From Ignavibacteria bacterium (GTDB lineage: Bacteria; Bacteroidota; Ignavibacteria; Tepidaquicellales; Tepidaquicellaceae): a stretch of 38,960 nt of DNA. Positions 21,923-31,768 of the stretch are shown piece by piece (position 1 is the first letter of the stretch; each line of letters begins with the position of its first letter). Below the pieces are notes generated by a model. It ran no database searches. It saw only the letters and a program-made list of their open reading frames with translations, and was not told the DNA's origin. Position numbers and translations under genes: made by a program. The stretch is taken from positions 1 to 38,960 of the forward strand of contig JAFGII010000014.1 of NCBI GenBank assembly GCA_016929695.1, in the 5' to 3' direction.

Positions 21923-22324
21923 TTAAATATTACTTCTTATATAATATTTTATAAACTCGGAAGGAGTAACGATAAATTTTTCGTCAGGAAAATGTTTTTT
22001 GTTCATAGTTAATAGATAATCCGCTTTTCCGCAAATAGAAACTTCGTAAAATTTTTTGTTTTCCTCATCTTTAAATTCAGCAGATACGGGTTTTGTTGAT
22101 ATGCACTCCCCCATATTTTCAATGAATTCAATAAAAGAACTGATTAAGTCTTTAGAAAAATTAAACCTGTTCTGTTTTAATAAACTTTTATATTCGTCCA
22201 GTATTTTTGAGTCATATAACAGAAGGAAATCCGAATTCAGTAACATTTTTAAAATTTCAGCGGAAACGCAGTCGGGATTTGTAAATCCGTGTACAAAAAC
22301 ATTACAATCTATTACTATTCTCAT
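21923..22324 (-). CDS. PIN-domain ribonuclease toxin (COG1569-like)
   Basis: The 133-residue protein has the PIN fold landmarks. It begins MRIVIDCNVFVHGF with acidic D6, followed by LYDSKILDEY with E44. The DEENKKFYEVSICGKADYLLTMNKKHF block includes D102 and corresponds to the family's 'D-DNKFLE-A--ADYLVT' core. The metal-binding acidic residues needed for RNase activity are therefore present. Its ATG overlaps the stop of the upstream antitoxin gene by 4 bp, the usual arrangement of a type II toxin-antitoxin pair. The RNA target is unknown. Confidence 0.88.
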   Translation of the reverse strand: MRIVIDCNVFVHGFTNPDCVSAEILKMLLNSDFLLLYDSKILDEYKSLLKQNRFNFSKDLISSFIEFIENMGECISTKPVSAEFKDEENKKFYEVSICGKADYLLTMNKKHFPDEKFIVTPSEFIKYYIRSNI

Positions 22325-22605
22325 TTCATTACTTTTCTTGCTGTGTCAATAATACCGTTTATTTCTTTTTTAGACAGCTTATGATTCCTGTTTTTTACGG
22401 AGGTTTTCCACATTTTATCCAGACTGACAATTGCTTTGGCGCGCCTTATTTCATTAAGTGTTTCTTCAATATTTAAATCCGAAAGAGGTGTAAGCAAAAC
22501 AACAGGTGTCCCCTTATTCGTGATAATTAATTCATTAACATTTTCAAGTTCATCCCAGACTTTTTTGGGATGATTTTTATAATCATCTTCTGTTATATAC
22601 TTCAT
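22321..22605 (-). CDS. Phd/YefM-type antitoxin
   Basis: The 94-residue protein has a short N-terminal region, WDELENVNELIITNKGTPVVLLTP, typical of Phd/YefM DNA-binding antitoxins. A Lys-rich helical C-terminus follows and would mask the toxin. A purine-rich AAGGA lies about eight bases before the ATG, so this gene, unlike most neighbours, has a Shine-Dalgarno-like site. It is the first gene of the pair with the PIN toxin and probably autoregulates it. Confidence 0.82.
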   Translation of the reverse strand: MKYITEDDYKNHPKKVWDELENVNELIITNKGTPVVLLTPLSDLNIEETLNEIRRAKAIVSLDKMWKTSVKNRNHKLSKKEINGIIDTARKVMK

Positions 22606-22708
22606 ATTATTTTTCCTTAATTAAAATAACACCTTAGAGTATAATTATCAACACATTTTTTATGAATTAATTAAAAATAGTATTAATGAACAGTCACGGT
22701 TAAAAAAA

Positions 22709-23020: not shown

Positions 23021-23842
23021 TTATTCATAATAGAAATACTTAAATACTGTATATATTAAAGGTTCGCATTCCAAATCATAATGTGTAGATTCAAGTGTTT
23101 CACCTTTTTGATTATATTTTGTGATTATTTTCTTTGTCATTTCATTATTTTTATCATAAAAGAAACGTTCTTCTTTTCTTCCGTCTTTACTGTATTTATA
23201 AATTTGCTTTTCGCTTATATCGGTATCATTTAAATAGGATGTTTCTTCCACAAGACGTTTTTTTTCATCATACTTCCTTATTATTTTAGAATCAACTTCC
23301 CCGTTACTTTTATATAATATAATATCGGTTGTCTGACCATTTTTATTTTTTAATTCTAACTGTTTGTACATAAGATATCCATCGTCAATGTAGTAAAATG
23401 TCTCGCACTTCTGATTTTTTTCATCATATTTAAAAACAACTCTTTGTAATATCTCATTACATTCATCGTATATTAATATTCTTGAAACCCTGTCATTCCT
23501 GTCGTATTTTATTTTTTCAATTTCGTATATTCCTTCTTCCAGATAATTTATTTCTTTGGCAATTAATCTTCCGAATTTATCATAAGAGAAATTTTCATAG
23601 TCCGTAAAAATTCCTTCGTCATCATATCTTGAGATATTGAGAATGTTCTCTTCGGAGTCATATATAACTTTTTCCGAAAGATATAGTTCGTCATTTAAGT
23701 CAATATTATAAACAAGAGTTTCTGTAATTTTCCCTTCGGGAGAGAATATATTTTCGGATGACTTGTATTTTTTTTTATTTCTCTTGCCGTTGGTGTAATA
23801 GTAATCAAATTCTATTACATGTTTGAGAATTTTATTTTTCAT
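23021..23842 (-). CDS. Tyrosine-rich YD/MORN-like repeat protein
   Basis: The 273-residue protein has no signal peptide and is built from about eight units of roughly 25-35 residues. Examples are YDKFGRLIAKEINYLEEG, YDRNDRVSRILIYDE, YDEKKRLVEETSYLNDT and YSKDGRKEERFFYDKNN. The pattern 'K-YD--GR--E---Y' resembles beta-hairpin repeats of YD/RHS or MORN_2 type, but it lacks the canonical RHS core and any toxin tail. Its ATG lies inside the end of the dprA-like gene (11-bp overlap), so the two are likely translated together. The function is unknown. Without a secretion signal, it may be a cytoplasmic sensor or adaptor of the cassette. Confidence 0.75.
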   Translation of the reverse strand: MKNKILKHVIEFDYYYTNGKRNKKKYKSSENIFSPEGKITETLVYNIDLNDELYLSEKVIYDSEENILNISRYDDEGIFTDYENFSYDKFGRLIAKEINYLEEGIYEIEKIKYDRNDRVSRILIYDECNEILQRVVFKYDEKNQKCETFYYIDDGYLMYKQLELKNKNGQTTDIILYKSNGEVDSKIIRKYDEKKRLVEETSYLNDTDISEKQIYKYSKDGRKEERFFYDKNNEMTKKIITKYNQKGETLESTHYDLECEPLIYTVFKYFYYE

Positions 23843-25013
23843 TTGATTGAAATAATTTATGCTGATAATTATTATTGCAGTTTTTAATACGGTAATAATT
23901 TTTGTTTCTGATTTTTACTATTTCGATGCTGCCGAGTTTCTTTATATAAGTGTTTAATTTTTTTGGAGACCAGTCAAGGTTCAATTTTGAAATGATTTCC
24001 GTAGCTGTTAACGATGTATTTTGTAAAATTCTTATTATATCGTCTTCGGGAGATTTACCTTCTCTGACGGTTTGAAAAACAATATCATTGTTTTTTATTG
24101 AGTTTATTCCCGGTCCGGATATGCCTGTCGCGTGATAAGATTCCTTTCCTTTCATATCTACGGGGACAGCACCTATTTCTATTAATTTATTATTAGCGTT
24201 TTTTTCGTCTGCATTCGGCATTCTCACATAAATTTTTCTTCCTTTCCGCAGTCCGTCCTGTACTCCCGACCATGTTCCGCCTTTTTCATCGGATTCCGCA
24301 ACGTAAATTTCCTGAGCAAGACCGTAAATAACCGGATTTCTTGCCATTGCAAGTTCCACTTTCCACGGTGCTTTCGGATGAAATATGCTTAAAACAAGTA
24401 CATCGCCGTTTATTATCTGAGTATAATATTGCCTGAATCCCGATGAAAATGTCAGAATACCCTGCGGTAAAACTATTATACTGCGTCCGATGTATTTTAT
24501 TGCGGAATCAAGTGCCTGCTTGTCAACCCCTTTAGCAAAGCCGCTTACTACTACTTTAAATTCTTTGCTCGCAAGTTTTGCAATGTTGTCAGTGAATTCA
24601 AGCGAAATATCAGAAGCGTTACGTGAACCGACTATTGCAACAGATTTTTCCCGAAAGATTTGTTTATCGCCTTTGATGTATATTAATGCGGGAGAATAAG
24701 ATACTTTCAGATTTTGTTTTAAAGTCTTCGGATAGTCTTCGGATGTTATGGGAATAAGTTCATAACCCTCATTGAATAGATTTTCCGCAAGAAATGAATT
24801 GTTCGGAATTTCGGATTTTGAATTATTTAAATCCGATACCTCTTTATCATTTAAACCGTATAAGTTTCTCCATTCGGATTCGGAAAGTTTAAAAAAATCT
24901 TCGAGCGGTAATTTATTTTCATGATGAAATTTAATTATTAATTCATTAATTCTTGATGTCCGCCACTTTGGCAGATGTGCAAAAGAAATCCAGTATGGCG
25001 CATCCTTAATCAT
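23832..25013 (-). CDS. DprA/Smf-like SLOG-fold protein, divergent
   Basis: The 393-residue protein has a helical N-terminal region of about 90 residues, then the DprA hallmark 'YPKTLKQ...SPALIYIKGD' (94-116). The Rossmann-like core has SVAIVGSRNAS (GSR 129-131) and VVVSGFAKGVDKQALD (157-168). The usual 'G(S/G)LITA--A---GR-V-A-PG' block is replaced by EKGGTWSGVQDGLRKGRKIYV (about 243-263). A winged helix ends the protein (about 322-378). DprA normally loads RecA onto incoming ssDNA, and related SLOG proteins bind nucleotides. Its ATG overlaps the recQ-like stop by 4 bp. The odd core and partner genes argue for a specialised paralogue and not the competence dprA. Confidence 0.85.
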   Translation of the reverse strand: MIKDAPYWISFAHLPKWRTSRINELIIKFHHENKLPLEDFFKLSESEWRNLYGLNDKEVSDLNNSKSEIPNNSFLAENLFNEGYELIPITSEDYPKTLKQNLKVSYSPALIYIKGDKQIFREKSVAIVGSRNASDISLEFTDNIAKLASKEFKVVVSGFAKGVDKQALDSAIKYIGRSIIVLPQGILTFSSGFRQYYTQIINGDVLVLSIFHPKAPWKVELAMARNPVIYGLAQEIYVAESDEKGGTWSGVQDGLRKGRKIYVRMPNADEKNANNKLIEIGAVPVDMKGKESYHATGISGPGINSIKNNDIVFQTVREGKSPEDDIIRILQNTSLTATEIISKLNLDWSPKKLNTYIKKLGSIEIVKIRNKNYYRIKNCNNNYQHKLFQSNEK

Positions 25014-27028
25014 ACAATATCTCCTCCTACCGTTTTTGCAATTACCAGAGGTGCAATTTTTTGTGCCCCCATATCCGATAAATATTTTCCTATTTCTTTC
25101 ATTGTTGCTCCGCTGTCGAATATATCGTCTATTAATAAAATTTTCTTTCTAAAAATACCGTTTGGATTAATTAAAATAAATGCATCTTTTACATTATCTG
25201 CTTTCAGATAAGTATTTTCAAACATTTTTTGTTCTTTTGTTTCAACCTGTTTTACAAGGTCATCGGAGACAGGAATATTCAGTATTTTGGAAATTTTAAC
25301 GGCAAAATTTTTGACGAGGTTTCCGGATTTTGTCGGAGGAACATATAATATCAAATCAAATTTTTCATTACCGAATTTATAACGAAATGCATTCACAGAA
25401 AGATTAAGCAGAAAGTCCGGGAAATCCCCGCCGTTTTTATATTTACATTTGTGAATAACCTTGCCTACGTTTGATACTCCGTAGTAGGAACCTGCAATGC
25501 CGTTTACAATATTGGATTTCTTGCTTTCAACTTTCAATTCGGGGAAATCACTTTCCCGAAACTTATTTAATTTCTGCTGCCACTCTTCGGATTGAACAAT
25601 TGTTAACTTCTTCAATCCCGTATTATCACAGTTTTTAAATTCTCTGCCTGTGTTGTCTCCGAGGAATTCGCACAGAAATTTCATACGGGAATTTTCTGTT
25701 TCCGTATAATCAATCATACATTCAAGTTCTTTTATCTTCAGATTTCTGAGTTCTTCGAATGTTTTAGAATTTAATTCAGGAGCATTTCTTATATATTCAT
25801 ATTTCTTACTTTTACCGACAGTTACCTCTCTAATAATTTTTTGCTCCATCAGGTCAGCTTTTATTACTCTTACCTGATTGGTTTTCAGGTTCACTTTTTT
25901 CATTATTTCGCGTTCACCGAGCAATTCTTTTTTAATTTCTTCAATTACTTTGAAATATTTTGTAATTGAAGGTCTCCCGCCTTCTATGAATGATTCGGGA
26001 AGGTCTCTGTCTTCGGGATTATAGAAAAGAATTATATCTGAGGGTAATCCGTCCCTTCCTGCTCTTCCTATTTCCTGATAATAATGTATCGGAGACTGCG
26101 GTATCTGAGTATGTATTATGAATCTGATGTCGGGTTTATCTATTCCCATTCCGAGTGCATTTGTAGATACCACGCATTTCCATTTATTATTCATTAAACC
26201 GTTTTCAATTTCAACTCTTGATTGAGCATCGAGACCGGCATTATAATTAACTGAAGATATTTTTGAAAATTCGAACCATCTTGAATAAATTTCTGTATTA
26301 ACTCTCGTTCCCGTATAGATTATTCCGGAGCCGTTAATGGAATTTAAATTCTGTGCGAGCCAAATCATTTTTTCATCTTCGGAATTTACTTTTATTACGT
26401 ATAATCGGAAGTTATCTCTCATAAGATTTCCTCTGGAAACATTTACATTGCCTCCGATTTGCTTTGCAATGTCCTCTTCAACCCGTTTAGTAGCGGTTGC
26501 TGTAGTTGCAAGCACAGGGAATCCTTCAGGCAGAAGTTTAACAAGATTAATAATTCTTCTGAATGCAGGACGAAAATCATGCCCCCATACCGAAACACAG
26601 TGAGCTTCGTCAATTACAACCATTGATAAATTCATTTGCCTTGTTGATTCGAGCCATTCTTTATTTTCCTGCCTTTCGGGAGCAATGTAAAGAATTTTTA
26701 TTTTTCCTTTAATTGCTTCATCCAGCACCAACGCATTTTCTTCCGGAGTTCGTTCACTGTTAACGCATTTTGCCGCTATTCCAAGCTCATTAAGTTTTTT
26801 GATTTGGTCACGCATTAAGGACAGCAAGGGAGAAAACACAACTGTCATACCTTTAAACAAAACAGCAGGGAACTGATAGCATAATGATTTCCCGTATCCG
26901 GTTTTTTCTATAAGTAGAACTCTTTCACCGTTCAGAATTTTTTCAACTGTGAACCATTGATTCTCATGGAATCCTTTAATTTTGAATTTATTTGTTAATA
27001 AAGATTCTGCCTGAATTCGTGTTAACAT
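25010..27028 (-). CDS. RecQ-family DNA helicase fused to a phosphoribosyltransferase domain
   Basis: The 672-residue protein is a superfamily 2 helicase. Walker A is EKTGYGKS (41-48), the DEAH box VVIDEAHCVSVWGHDFRP starts near 137, TTATAT lies near 175-180, and motif VI QEIGRAGRDG ends at 327. The RecQ zinc subdomain is degenerate: only C437, C453 and C467 remain and the CGNCDNC pattern reads FKNCDNT. The C-terminal 170 residues form a type I phosphoribosyltransferase with the PRPP loop ILLIDDIFDSGATM (630-643) and an upstream VPPTKSG segment. It heads an operon with the DprA-like and repeat genes. A six-codon leader frame (27049-27029) ends in TAG directly before the ATG. Confidence 0.92.
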   Translation of the reverse strand: MLTRIQAESLLTNKFKIKGFHENQWFTVEKILNGERVLLIEKTGYGKSLCYQFPAVLFKGMTVVFSPLLSLMRDQIKKLNELGIAAKCVNSERTPEENALVLDEAIKGKIKILYIAPERQENKEWLESTRQMNLSMVVIDEAHCVSVWGHDFRPAFRRIINLVKLLPEGFPVLATTATATKRVEEDIAKQIGGNVNVSRGNLMRDNFRLYVIKVNSEDEKMIWLAQNLNSINGSGIIYTGTRVNTEIYSRWFEFSKISSVNYNAGLDAQSRVEIENGLMNNKWKCVVSTNALGMGIDKPDIRFIIHTQIPQSPIHYYQEIGRAGRDGLPSDIILFYNPEDRDLPESFIEGGRPSITKYFKVIEEIKKELLGEREIMKKVNLKTNQVRVIKADLMEQKIIREVTVGKSKKYEYIRNAPELNSKTFEELRNLKIKELECMIDYTETENSRMKFLCEFLGDNTGREFKNCDNTGLKKLTIVQSEEWQQKLNKFRESDFPELKVESKKSNIVNGIAGSYYGVSNVGKVIHKCKYKNGGDFPDFLLNLSVNAFRYKFGNEKFDLILYVPPTKSGNLVKNFAVKISKILNIPVSDDLVKQVETKEQKMFENTYLKADNVKDAFILINPNGIFRKKILLIDDIFDSGATMKEIGKYLSDMGAQKIAPLVIAKTVGGDIV

Positions 27029-27128
27029 CTATCGGGTGAATTGATTCATGTTTTAACCGTGAAAATTCAAGGAATAGAAAAATATAATTTTTTTTGATAT
27101 TTCACAGCATTATTATAATCCGTGTTTG

Positions 27129-27967: not shown

Positions 27968-30802
27968 CTATTTCAGCAGAATTAATTTTTTTGTTTCGGT
28001 ATAACTTTCTGTTTCAAGCCGGTAAAAATAAATTCCCGACGATAAATTTCCGGCATCAAATGTAACCTCGTAAGTTCCTGAATTAAGTTTTTCATTTACC
28101 GGAACGGAAACAACTCTTCCGAGTAAATCATATACCGTTAGTTTCGTTAATCCTGATTTCGGGATTTCAAATTTAATTTTAGTCGAAGGATTAAACGGAT
28201 TCGGATAATTCTGATGAAGAATAAATTTCTCCGGTATTTCTGTTGACAATTCTTTTATTCCCACAACATAATTTATTGTAAAACTAATATTTGGTTTTGA
28301 ATTCTGAACAGTACCTGCATTGAGGTCATTGCACCCGCTTCCGTTAATTAAATCCTGATGCTGGTGCCATACAGTTCCGGGTGAATTAAATGAAAAAACC
28401 TGTGAATTTTGTCCGAATGTATTATTATCATAGCAAACTTCAATTAACATATGACTTTCATCCCAGAAAAATGGCGTAGTCAAATCAATATATCTCCAAC
28501 CTGTTCCTGATACGGTATAATTACCCGAAAACACAGTAGTCCATCCGCTGTTTACAAAACCGTTTAAAGTAATTGCGGATGTATGCTGCATTTTAACAGT
28601 CAGCCCGTTTAATTGTACCGGAGATGCTGAAATAATCTGAAACCCTATTCTCAAAATTGACCCCATTGCGCCGCCCGCATTAAATAATTCCCATGCCTTA
28701 TAAATAAACTGCGTTCTTGCATCCGTATAAAATGTTGTAAACGGATACGAACTTATATCCGTACCGTTTCCGACAAATATTGTTGCCAAATTAGTCAGTT
28801 TGAATTTGTATAACGGTGTTGAATCAACATTATGATTTGAAGATACATCTCTGCCAAATATTCTGTAAAATATTGAATCATTTAAGTATACTTCATTTAT
28901 ATTTGAATTAAAATTTGCAGAATATAAATTTCCGGATGCATTTAATTTCAAATGACGGATTCCCTGTGATGCATTATTGATATACCATTTGACCCAGACC
29001 GAATCCACACCTATGTTGTCAGTCACAAATGTCTTGACAAGAACAGGCCAGGCGGGTTTTGGTGTATCGGGCAATTGTGTGTGCAGAATTACGGGTTTTA
29101 TTAAATCCGGTCCTGCATTGAAAGATAAATATCCCGCCGGTGCATTTGCGGGAAATAAACTTATTCTTCCGAGTAAATCAACGGCTTTAATAAAATATCT
29201 GTATTGAGCCGGAGAACCGTTGCCGGGAATATTTCCTGTCCAGTTATTACCCGAAGAATTTGTCAGTGCAACGCTGTCGGTTAATCCGCCTCTGCCCCAT
29301 ATTACTTTTGTTAAGGAAGAATTTATATTGCTGCCAACAGTTAGTAATTTAGTATTAACAATATAAGGACCTGTGAGATTTTCCGTGTCCTTTAATGAAT
29401 CGTGAACTATAACGGGACCTATTGTTACCTTAGCCGAATATATCTGTGCTTTACCGCTTCTGTTATCCGTCCAGAAGGGGTACATATTCCCGTTGTGAGC
29501 GGATACACTTATATAGTCGCCGTAATATCCTGTCGCATATCCCTGAAGAGGAACAGGTTTCTGCGGAGAACTGCTGATTTTAAAGTTTGTCCAGTTCGCA
29601 CCTCCGTCTGGGGAAAGTGCCATATATGTATTGCAGGAATCAAGGGTTGAAACATCCCTCGAGTCATAATAAATAATTACAATATTTCCGTTTGACTGGT
29701 CAACGGTTAGCCAGGGCAGAAATTGCGGTTTGCCGTTATTTAATGCATCGTCATTTACTCTGACCGGAGCAGAAAAACTGGTTCCTCCGTTTGATGAAAA
29801 AACAAAAATTATATCCGCATCACTGCCTGAAGGTGCAAGAGCCCTCTGTGTCCAGCACAGATAAATATATCCGTTTCTTGCACCACCGCTTCTGTCAACT
29901 CCCATTGAAGGGAATGAATTCACTCTTATATTGGAATTTAATATTGTTCCTCTGACTCCTCCTACTGGAATAGGTAATGTCGGAGTAATCCAGTTTACTC
30001 CGCCGTTAGTTGATTTAGAAAAACCTATTTTATCTTCAGTATGAGGCAGGTTGTTAATCGGAGTAGCCCATACCGCATATACAACTCCTCCGGGACCTGT
30101 TTGCAGATTTATCCCCTGTTCATAATGATTTGCCTGAGGTGAGCCAACCTGAATTTCTCCTGAAAAACTTTGTCCGTAGTTTGTTGAATATACTATTACA
30201 ACAGGATATGGGGGAGACCAGCGTGTATATCCTACGTAAAATCTTTGATAATAGGGACTGGTTGACTGATAATCAATTGCAGCGTGATTTTTATCAAAGC
30301 CGCCTGAAGTCGGAATAACAACTCTCCCAATCCAGGACTGCCCGTTGTTTGCGGAACGGTCAACTGCGATTGTATTATCAAAATAGTTAAACAAAAAATT
30401 TCCGTTAGGAGCAATTAAGACAGCCGGATTAGTAGAGATTGCAATTGAGCCGGGCAGCAAATCGTTTCCGTACCATGTTGATCCGGCATTAGTTGATACA
30501 TAATATCCCTGTCCGACATCAGTATTTGCTCCTGCAAAAATAATATTCGGATTTGATATGTGTATTGATGAAGAAATTTCACTCTGATTTATGCCGGTGG
30601 GAAAGATTCTATAATCCGGAAATACAGATAATATTCCCGATGGAGAACTTATCAGAACGGCTTTATTATTATTAATTTTAACGAATGAATTTTCTTCATA
30701 ACCGTACGACATCGTGAAATCGAAAGGCTTGGAAATAGTTCTTTCCTGTGAATAAAGTATCACGGAATAAAAGAGCAAAACTAAAAAAAATATTTTTTTC
30801 AT
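27968..30802 (-). CDS. Secreted BNR/sialidase-like repeat protein with T9SS sorting domain
   Basis: The 944-residue protein has a signal peptide (MKKIFFLVLLFYSVILYS). An N-terminal beta-propeller of about 450 residues shows repeated Asp-box motifs: STNAGSTW, SANNGQSW, STNYGQSF, STNGGVNW, SSNGGTSF and SPDGGANW. Ig-like or fibronectin-like beta regions follow. The last 85 residues are a complete type A T9SS C-terminal domain (HQNYPNPFNPSTKIKFEIPK...SGIYFYRL...KKLILLK). It should cross the outer membrane by the Por system and be released or anchored at the surface. Asp boxes alone do not prove sialidase activity, and I cannot identify a sialidase active site. Confidence 0.9.
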   Translation of the reverse strand: MKKIFFLVLLFYSVILYSQERTISKPFDFTMSYGYEENSFVKINNNKAVLISSPSGILSVFPDYRIFPTGINQSEISSSIHISNPNIIFAGANTDVGQGYYVSTNAGSTWYGNDLLPGSIAISTNPAVLIAPNGNFLFNYFDNTIAVDRSANNGQSWIGRVVIPTSGGFDKNHAAIDYQSTSPYYQRFYVGYTRWSPPYPVVIVYSTNYGQSFSGEIQVGSPQANHYEQGINLQTGPGGVVYAVWATPINNLPHTEDKIGFSKSTNGGVNWITPTLPIPVGGVRGTILNSNIRVNSFPSMGVDRSGGARNGYIYLCWTQRALAPSGSDADIIFVFSSNGGTSFSAPVRVNDDALNNGKPQFLPWLTVDQSNGNIVIIYYDSRDVSTLDSCNTYMALSPDGGANWTNFKISSSPQKPVPLQGYATGYYGDYISVSAHNGNMYPFWTDNRSGKAQIYSAKVTIGPVIVHDSLKDTENLTGPYIVNTKLLTVGSNINSSLTKVIWGRGGLTDSVALTNSSGNNWTGNIPGNGSPAQYRYFIKAVDLLGRISLFPANAPAGYLSFNAGPDLIKPVILHTQLPDTPKPAWPVLVKTFVTDNIGVDSVWVKWYINNASQGIRHLKLNASGNLYSANFNSNINEVYLNDSIFYRIFGRDVSSNHNVDSTPLYKFKLTNLATIFVGNGTDISSYPFTTFYTDARTQFIYKAWELFNAGGAMGSILRIGFQIISASPVQLNGLTVKMQHTSAITLNGFVNSGWTTVFSGNYTVSGTGWRYIDLTTPFFWDESHMLIEVCYDNNTFGQNSQVFSFNSPGTVWHQHQDLINGSGCNDLNAGTVQNSKPNISFTINYVVGIKELSTEIPEKFILHQNYPNPFNPSTKIKFEIPKSGLTKLTVYDLLGRVVSVPVNEKLNSGTYEVTFDAGNLSSGIYFYRLETESYTETKKLILLK

Positions 30803-30994: not shown

Positions 30995-31768
30995 ATGAAT
31001 AATTTAGCCGTAACTCTTGTACAATACTCAATGGTATGGGAAAAGCCGCGTGAAAACCTGAGAAAAGTCTATTCTCTTATAAAGCAAAACATAAAAAAAA
31101 CAGATATAATTATTTTGCCTGAAATGTTCAGTACCGGATTTACTTTAAATGTAAAGAATAATTTCGGGTCTATGAGAAGTCCCGTGATAAAATGGATGAA
31201 AGAAATTTCAGCCGAATTCAAATGTGCAGTATGCGGAAGCCTCACCGTAAAGGAAAAAAAGAAATATTACAACAGACTAATTTGGGCAGAACATAATAAA
31301 GACTTGAAGTATTATGACAAGAGGCATTTATTTTCTTTTGTTAATGAAGATATGAATTTCACTCCGGGAAATTCTAAAGTAATTATAGATTATAAAGGAT
31401 GGAAAATTCTGCCTCTCATTTGCTATGACCTCCGTTTTCCCGTGTGGTCGAGATATAACAATGATTATGATATGATTATATATGTGGCTAACTGGCCTGA
31501 AAGAAGAAGTTATGCATGGAAATCACTTCTTATCGCAAGAGCAATTGAAAATCAGTCTTTTGTTATAGGAGTTAACAGAACAGGCACCGATAATGACGGA
31601 ATATACCATTCAGGTGATTCATCTGTGATTGCACCTGACGGGAAAATATTATTTACTGCTTCTGACAACGAAATTGTTTTTACAATAGTACTGAAACATA
31701 CTAATGTAAAATTATTCAGAAGAAAATTTCCTTTTCTTAAAGACAGGGATAAGTTCAAAATAAATTAA
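30995..31768 (+). CDS. Carbon-nitrogen hydrolase, omega-amidase (YafV/Nit2-like)
   Basis: This 257-residue nitrilase-superfamily enzyme carries the Glu-Lys-Cys triad: E43 in ILPEMFSTGF, K109 in YYDKRHLFSF, and C143 in LPLICYDLRFPVW. The 'EMFSTGF' and 'YDKRHLF' forms are typical of omega-amidases that hydrolyse alpha-ketoglutaramate or alpha-ketosuccinamate, a metabolite-repair step after glutamine transamination. It has no signal peptide. The ATG follows a purely A/T leader. A hairpin about 43 bases past the stop suggests a single-gene unit. Confidence 0.92.
   Translation: MNNLAVTLVQYSMVWEKPRENLRKVYSLIKQNIKKTDIIILPEMFSTGFTLNVKNNFGSMRSPVIKWMKEISAEFKCAVCGSLTVKEKKKYYNRLIWAEHNKDLKYYDKRHLFSFVNEDMNFTPGNSKVIIDYKGWKILPLICYDLRFPVWSRYNNDYDMIIYVANWPERRSYAWKSLLIARAIENQSFVIGVNRTGTDNDGIYHSGDSSVIAPDGKILFTASDNEIVFTIVLKHTNVKLFRRKFPFLKDRDKFKIN

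Follow-up and report, generated by a model that had tools for sequence, protein, structure and literature searches.

A probable PsyrTA (RqlHI) toxin–antitoxin pair at a variable site in an Ignavibacteria bacterium, with a putative sliding-clamp-binding motif in its DprA-like antitoxin

PsyrTA, also described as RqlHI, is a published toxin–antitoxin system and is listed among phage-defence systems (PsyrTA: Sberro 2013, known here through its citation in PMC9122126 and PMC8790059; RqlHI: Russell and Mulvey 2015, PMC4670107). In Escherichia coli, RqlH is genotoxic, and its toxicity needs the phosphoribosyltransferase (PRTase) domain and the phosphoribosyl pyrophosphate (PRPP) pocket of that domain. 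RqlI neutralises RqlH; the two proteins interact, and their genes form an operon in which the toxin gene comes first and the gene ends overlap or adjoin (PMC4670107). Rousset et al. grouped shosTA, syrTA and rqlHI as systems with DprA-homologue antitoxins, and suggested that phage DNA is sensed by DprA and the PRTase is then activated; a PRTase–DprA pair was active against T7 and lambda (PMC9122126). We analyzed a 38,960-nucleotide stretch (the window) from an Ignavibacteria bacterium (contig JAFGII010000014.1, assembly GCA_016929695.1). Its positions 23832–27028 very probably encode a PsyrTA (RqlHI) pair, and the DprA-like protein of this pair carries a putative motif for binding the replication sliding clamp.

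The first gene, psyrT (rqlH; positions 25010–27028, minus strand), encodes a predicted toxin of 672 residues with a RecQ-like helicase and a C-terminal ComF-like PRTase domain, the same fusion as in PsyrTA/RqlHI. The PADLOC PsyrT profile matched residues 5–670 (E 2.5e-264, 877 bits), and Pfam detected DEAD (4.7e-25), Helicase_C (1.2e-18) and Pribosyltran (3.7e-6), placing the helicase domain at residues 23–327. The motifs were unbroken: Walker A with K47, DEAH at 140 and GRAGR at 321. The PRPP loop lay at 631 (LLIDDIFDSGAT), with D634 and D635 in place, and read DDIFDSGAT. The PRPP-loop and Walker residues equivalent to those tested in E. coli were thus intact. Canonical RecQ was rejected as an identity, since TIGR01389 scored 365 bits against a cut-off of 640 bits and matched residues 9–357 alone. 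The C-terminal domain was 59–73% identical to those of six near relatives, and the protein was only about 29–34% identical to plasmid-borne PsyrT of other phyla. This copy sits in a branch of PsyrTA/RqlHI common in Bacteroidota and Ignavibacteria.

The second gene, psyrA (rqlI; positions 23832–25013, minus strand), lies directly downstream and shares 4 bp with psyrT, as expected of PsyrTA. Its product, a predicted antitoxin of 393 residues, is a DprA/SLOG-type protein. It matched the PADLOC PsyrA profile (E 3.6e-75, 252 bits) ahead of ShosA (2e-32), and Pfam DNA_processg_A (2.2e-39). The DprA/SLOG core was unbroken, with GSR at 129, SGFAKGVD at 157 and GGTW at 245. An AlphaFold2 model (mean predicted local distance difference test score, pLDDT, 87.7) gave a helical N-terminal domain (1–81), a SLOG Rossmann domain (85–285), a disordered linker, a winged helix (323–376) and a disordered tail. 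PsyrA shares the SLOG/Rossmann core with canonical DprA, but it was rejected as canonical DprA: TIGR00732 scored 111.3 bits against a cut-off of 191.15 bits, and the genome has its own DprA elsewhere. ShosTA also combines a PRTase with a DprA-like partner. The PRTase matched PADLOC ShosT as well (E 1.4e-6), and a solved ShosA chain (9vzo) was among the solved sequences closest to PsyrA. However, ShosT has no helicase domain, whereas here the PRTase forms one protein with a RecQ-like helicase.

Scanning for PsyrT C-termini yielded 80 related loci, which by their record titles came mostly from Bacteroidota and Ignavibacteria. In all 80, psyrT was followed by psyrA, with gene ends mostly overlapping or adjacent. 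Identity, order and conservation of the pair are thus observed. By homology with E. coli RqlHI, PsyrT is predicted to be toxic, and PsyrA to bind and neutralise it. A preliminary description, made from the sequence of the window, had reported three open reading frames (ORFs) on one strand with overlaps of 4 and 11 bp, intact helicase motifs, PRPP loop and DprA-type Rossmann core, and K47 and D634/D635 as key residues. All of these were found as reported. It had also suspected that RecQ/PRTase/DprA-like neighbourhoods already exist; this was correct, the pair being PsyrTA/RqlHI. The pair survived the refuting conditions that it set: psyrT and psyrA stay together in the loci retrieved with PsyrT, and a canonical dprA is present on another contig of the genome (C28, 257 bits). 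It had not recognised the PRTase as the toxin, nor the DprA-like protein as its antitoxin. Its proposal of a defence-type role stood in outline for the pair, but not for the third gene as a part of it.

The tail of PsyrA carries QHKLF at codons 384–388 (positions 23850–23864, minus strand). QxxLF is the general bacterial clamp-binding motif (PMC12309361; PMC11139829), and motifs of this kind can lie in the tail at the C-terminus or in a segment within the protein (PMC11139829). Proteins that bind the sliding clamp carry Q-x-x-[L/M]-F in a flexible segment, and QHKLF lies in such a segment: AlphaFold2 predicted residues 380–393 to be disordered (pLDDT <50). In an alignment of 30 PsyrA sequences, the motif columns held Q in 26/26, L in 27/29 and F in 29/30, and the surrounding residues were unconserved. 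PsyrA tails ended with QxxLF in 54 of 79 loci. The last 15 residues contained it in 18 of 29 non-redundant PsyrA sequences (<70% identical) versus a shuffle mean of 0.3, and none of 625 internal 15-mers of PsyrA did. Canonical DprA proteins differed from PsyrA, with QxxLF in 0 of 18 tails and in 1 of 18 when the last 110 residues were taken; among other ORFs used as a control it occurred in 2 of 477.

A survey of tails alone misses copies in the linker, such as that of E. coli RqlI, where QPELF lies between the SLOG and winged-helix domains rather than at the C-terminal end as in PsyrA here. Linker motifs were also found in an E. coli plasmid protein (QPELF) and in locus L166 (QGSLF), and PsyrA proteins whose winged helix is flush to the C-terminus can have the motif in the linker. 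When linker and tail were taken together, the strict motif was present in 25 of 42 non-redundant PsyrA proteins (mean of 0.8 over 1000 shuffles, with at most 5 in any one). After clustering at 60% identity it was present in 11 of 19, versus 0.46 expected. Forms of PsyrA too short for a winged helix retained it, as QTTLF (L070), QPTLF (L100) and the six-residue form QLSLSF (L120). We also looked for relocation of the motif to the PsyrT C-terminus in motif-poor pairs and did not find it. The motif is apparently an unreported feature of PsyrA: a literature search that left most subscription papers and bioRxiv preprints outside found nothing connecting RqlI or DprA-like antitoxins with the sliding clamp.

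These results suggested that PsyrA may dock the pair on the sliding clamp through QxxLF, and we give this reading, which is drawn from sequence, a probability of roughly 0.5. Even odds also apply to the wider proposal that PsyrA/RqlI antitoxins, that of E. coli included, would bind the clamp, so that PsyrTA would ride replication forks and be triggered by fork loss or hijack. Several points weigh against it. The strict motif was absent from 17 of the 42 non-redundant PsyrA proteins. Its second position is often not aliphatic (QTTLF, QKSLF, QHKLF), unlike the high-affinity QLxLF (PMC11139829). Different partners can share short motifs, and QxxLF might instead be a docking peptide for another protein, such as PsyrT itself, which we consider possible but rather unlikely. 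Clamp binders have this full pattern of Q, any two residues, L or M, and F within a disordered linker or tail, and QLTLF, QIDLF, QLELF and QLSLSF are among the forms seen. That the motif can move from tail to linker is in keeping with a free tether. The shuffle statistics ignore shared ancestry; this concern is lessened because the motif changes place between branches and because the enrichment survives clustering at 60% identity.

A further point comes from E. coli: truncated at residue 320 (of 400), RqlI still neutralises RqlH, and the cut falls at about the motif, a position estimated from the offset between the 431-residue annotation and the 400-residue protein. Neutralisation thus does not require the motif, and PsyrT is less likely to be the motif's main partner; the motif would then serve targeting or sensing. 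The defence role itself is not assured, because overexpression of PsyrTA in its native host gave only a growth defect and no protective activity in one study (PMC12409345), and direct evidence of phage protection by PsyrTA is thin in the literature consulted. For the locus itself, we infer toxicity, interaction, clamp binding, trigger and outcome. Without insisting on clamp docking, it is probable that the locus is a PsyrTA operon at a variable chromosomal site, with the toxin restrained by the antitoxin.

With clamp docking included, the proposed mechanism is as follows. PsyrT would be a RecQ-like DNA translocase whose C-terminal PRTase is the toxic activity, and PsyrA would bind PsyrT and keep it in check. 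QHKLF (residues 384–388) would dock the complex on the sliding clamp, and the tethered PsyrTA would survey replication forks. During a phage infection, for instance, forks may be hijacked or collapse; single-stranded DNA would then engage PsyrA/PsyrT, and the PRTase thereby freed would arrest the cell. The literature searched gave no description of the sensing step of PsyrTA-type systems. RipAB (Rosmer) of Streptococcus pneumoniae is a toxin–antitoxin system tied to DnaN, as proposed here (PMC12795458). The likeness considered is the DnaN link: the RipAB toxin attacks the clamp, whereas the docking proposed here is by the antitoxin.

PsyrTA is accessory and patchy, not core. Among 395 genomes of the phylum, about 30 had a full-length PsyrT match (>700 bits), and among 99 relatives, the window genome counted, 12 had a PsyrA-type match of more than 240 bits. 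Both congeners keep the left flank (DUF3127, Crp, NrfH and NrfA) and the right flank (homologues of 27968–30802 and 30995–31768). Between these flanks they have other genes, and neither psyrTA, a PIN/Phd module nor the third gene was found there. In the window, the variable site holds a Phd/PIN module, the third ORF, psyrA, psyrT and a gene for a DUF6265 protein. A type I restriction operon on an E. coli plasmid carries the pair, with hsdS on one side of it and hsdR on the other; an Acinetobacter plasmid has the pair next to pglX of a bacteriophage exclusion (BREX) system. Carriage by phages or viral contigs was rejected, as no full-length match was found there.

The window genome (2.78 Mb, 124 contigs) also bears on another explanation, that the pair, a RecQ-like helicase with a DprA-like single-stranded-DNA protein, serves the cell in repair or recombination because its lineage is missing canonical RecQ. 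PsyrT was the only protein of the window genome above the RecQ cut-off, which makes a housekeeping repair role possible and is one more point against the toxin–antitoxin reading. Among 30 relatives, only PsyrT-type proteins passed the cut-off. Helicase activity is on record for RqlH of Mycobacterium smegmatis (summarised in PMC4670107), and a clamp-like motif would equally suit a repair factor. Nevertheless, relatives without PsyrT were also without RecQ, indicating that PsyrT fills no conserved need, and a patchy distribution at a variable site does not fit such a role. In E. coli, no fitness cost was detected after loss of both genes, whereas cells that had lost only RqlI suffered harm caused by RqlH and its PRTase (PMC4670107). 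A repair module is therefore improbable, and the toxin–antitoxin reading is preferred. As a separate observation, canonical RecQ seems to be absent from this family and from the sampled part of its order (the window genome and the 30 relatives).

The third ORF (positions 23021–23842, minus strand) overlaps psyrA by 11 bp and encodes a cytosolic RHS/YD-repeat-like β-sheet protein of 273 residues. Pfam gave no significant family (RHS_repeat 13.9 bits, below the cut-off of 22; E 0.074). The AlphaFold2 model was a confident 20-strand sheet (mean pLDDT 91.5), and its best Foldseek matches were Rhs cores and OspA-like sheets, with low TM (template modelling) scores. This fold bore out the "YD-like repeat" label of the preliminary description. 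The "three-gene cassette" of the same description did not hold: none of the 80 related psyrTA loci had the third gene, and it was likewise missing at every homologous locus of nearer relatives and throughout the phylum set. Only in the present copy of PsyrTA/RqlHI does a YD-repeat ORF overlap the 3′ end.

The shared strand, the overlap and the confident fold would suit a genuine three-component system, with the YD-repeat protein as a lineage-specific sensor, scaffold or effector. The nearest relative found of the third gene (L197:5869–6672, genome G030) is the only other homologue found without a signal peptide. It belongs to a different defence island, without psyrTA, where a type I restriction operon stands on one side of it and a ThiF/E1-like gene, whose neighbours are unassigned, on the other. 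Two cytosolic cases in defence-type settings are too few for a claim. The other homologues inspected were mostly exported, judged by their N-termini, and stood in unrelated, mostly housekeeping surroundings. No sequence relatives were found in viral contigs or plasmids. The base composition also differs, with a guanine-plus-cytosine fraction of 0.268 versus 0.35 for psyrT and psyrA. A three-component system is thus very improbable. With no counterpart in any related locus, the third gene was rejected as a system component; it is a local neighbour.

The same variable site contains a separate toxin–antitoxin module (positions 21923–22605). It consists of a Phd/YefM-like antitoxin gene (22321–22605, minus strand; PhdYeFM_antitox 1.4e-5, 25.2 bits, just below the Pfam cut-off of 29.8) and a PIN_3 toxin gene (21923–22324, minus strand; PIN_3 2e-13) that overlap by 4 bp. 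Imperfect 19-nt inverted repeats at 22687–22705 and 27051–27069 flank the stretch from psyrT to the third gene. We dropped them as element ends because 3 of 100 shuffles matched as well and the pattern was picked post hoc. No structured RNA reached the gathering score in the region.

Some related loci departed from the simple two-gene arrangement. In L066 (1173–2333) and L091 (4374–6035), an extra gene lies between psyrT and psyrA and overlaps each by 4 bp. It encodes a second PsyrT/ShosT-like PRTase; the L066 and L091 proteins are 44.5% identical to one another over about 200 residues and differ in their N-terminal regions. One relative (L064:7078–9950) has two KilA-N genes between psyrT and a psyrA with in-frame stops, and a PIN gene further downstream. 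An E. coli O157:H7 record (L196:4441–6565) has an rqlH homologue annotated as a pseudogene beside an rqlI annotated as intact.

The analysis sets the two genes that form a real system apart from a third, which had been joined to them by reading the sequence alone. If true, clamp docking would be the first mechanistic handle on the trigger of a defence-listed toxin–antitoxin family. The clamp peptide predicts that PsyrA binds DnaN through QxxLF. Such binding would locate the system at the replication fork, a location that would explain the pairing of a helicase with a DprA-like protein.

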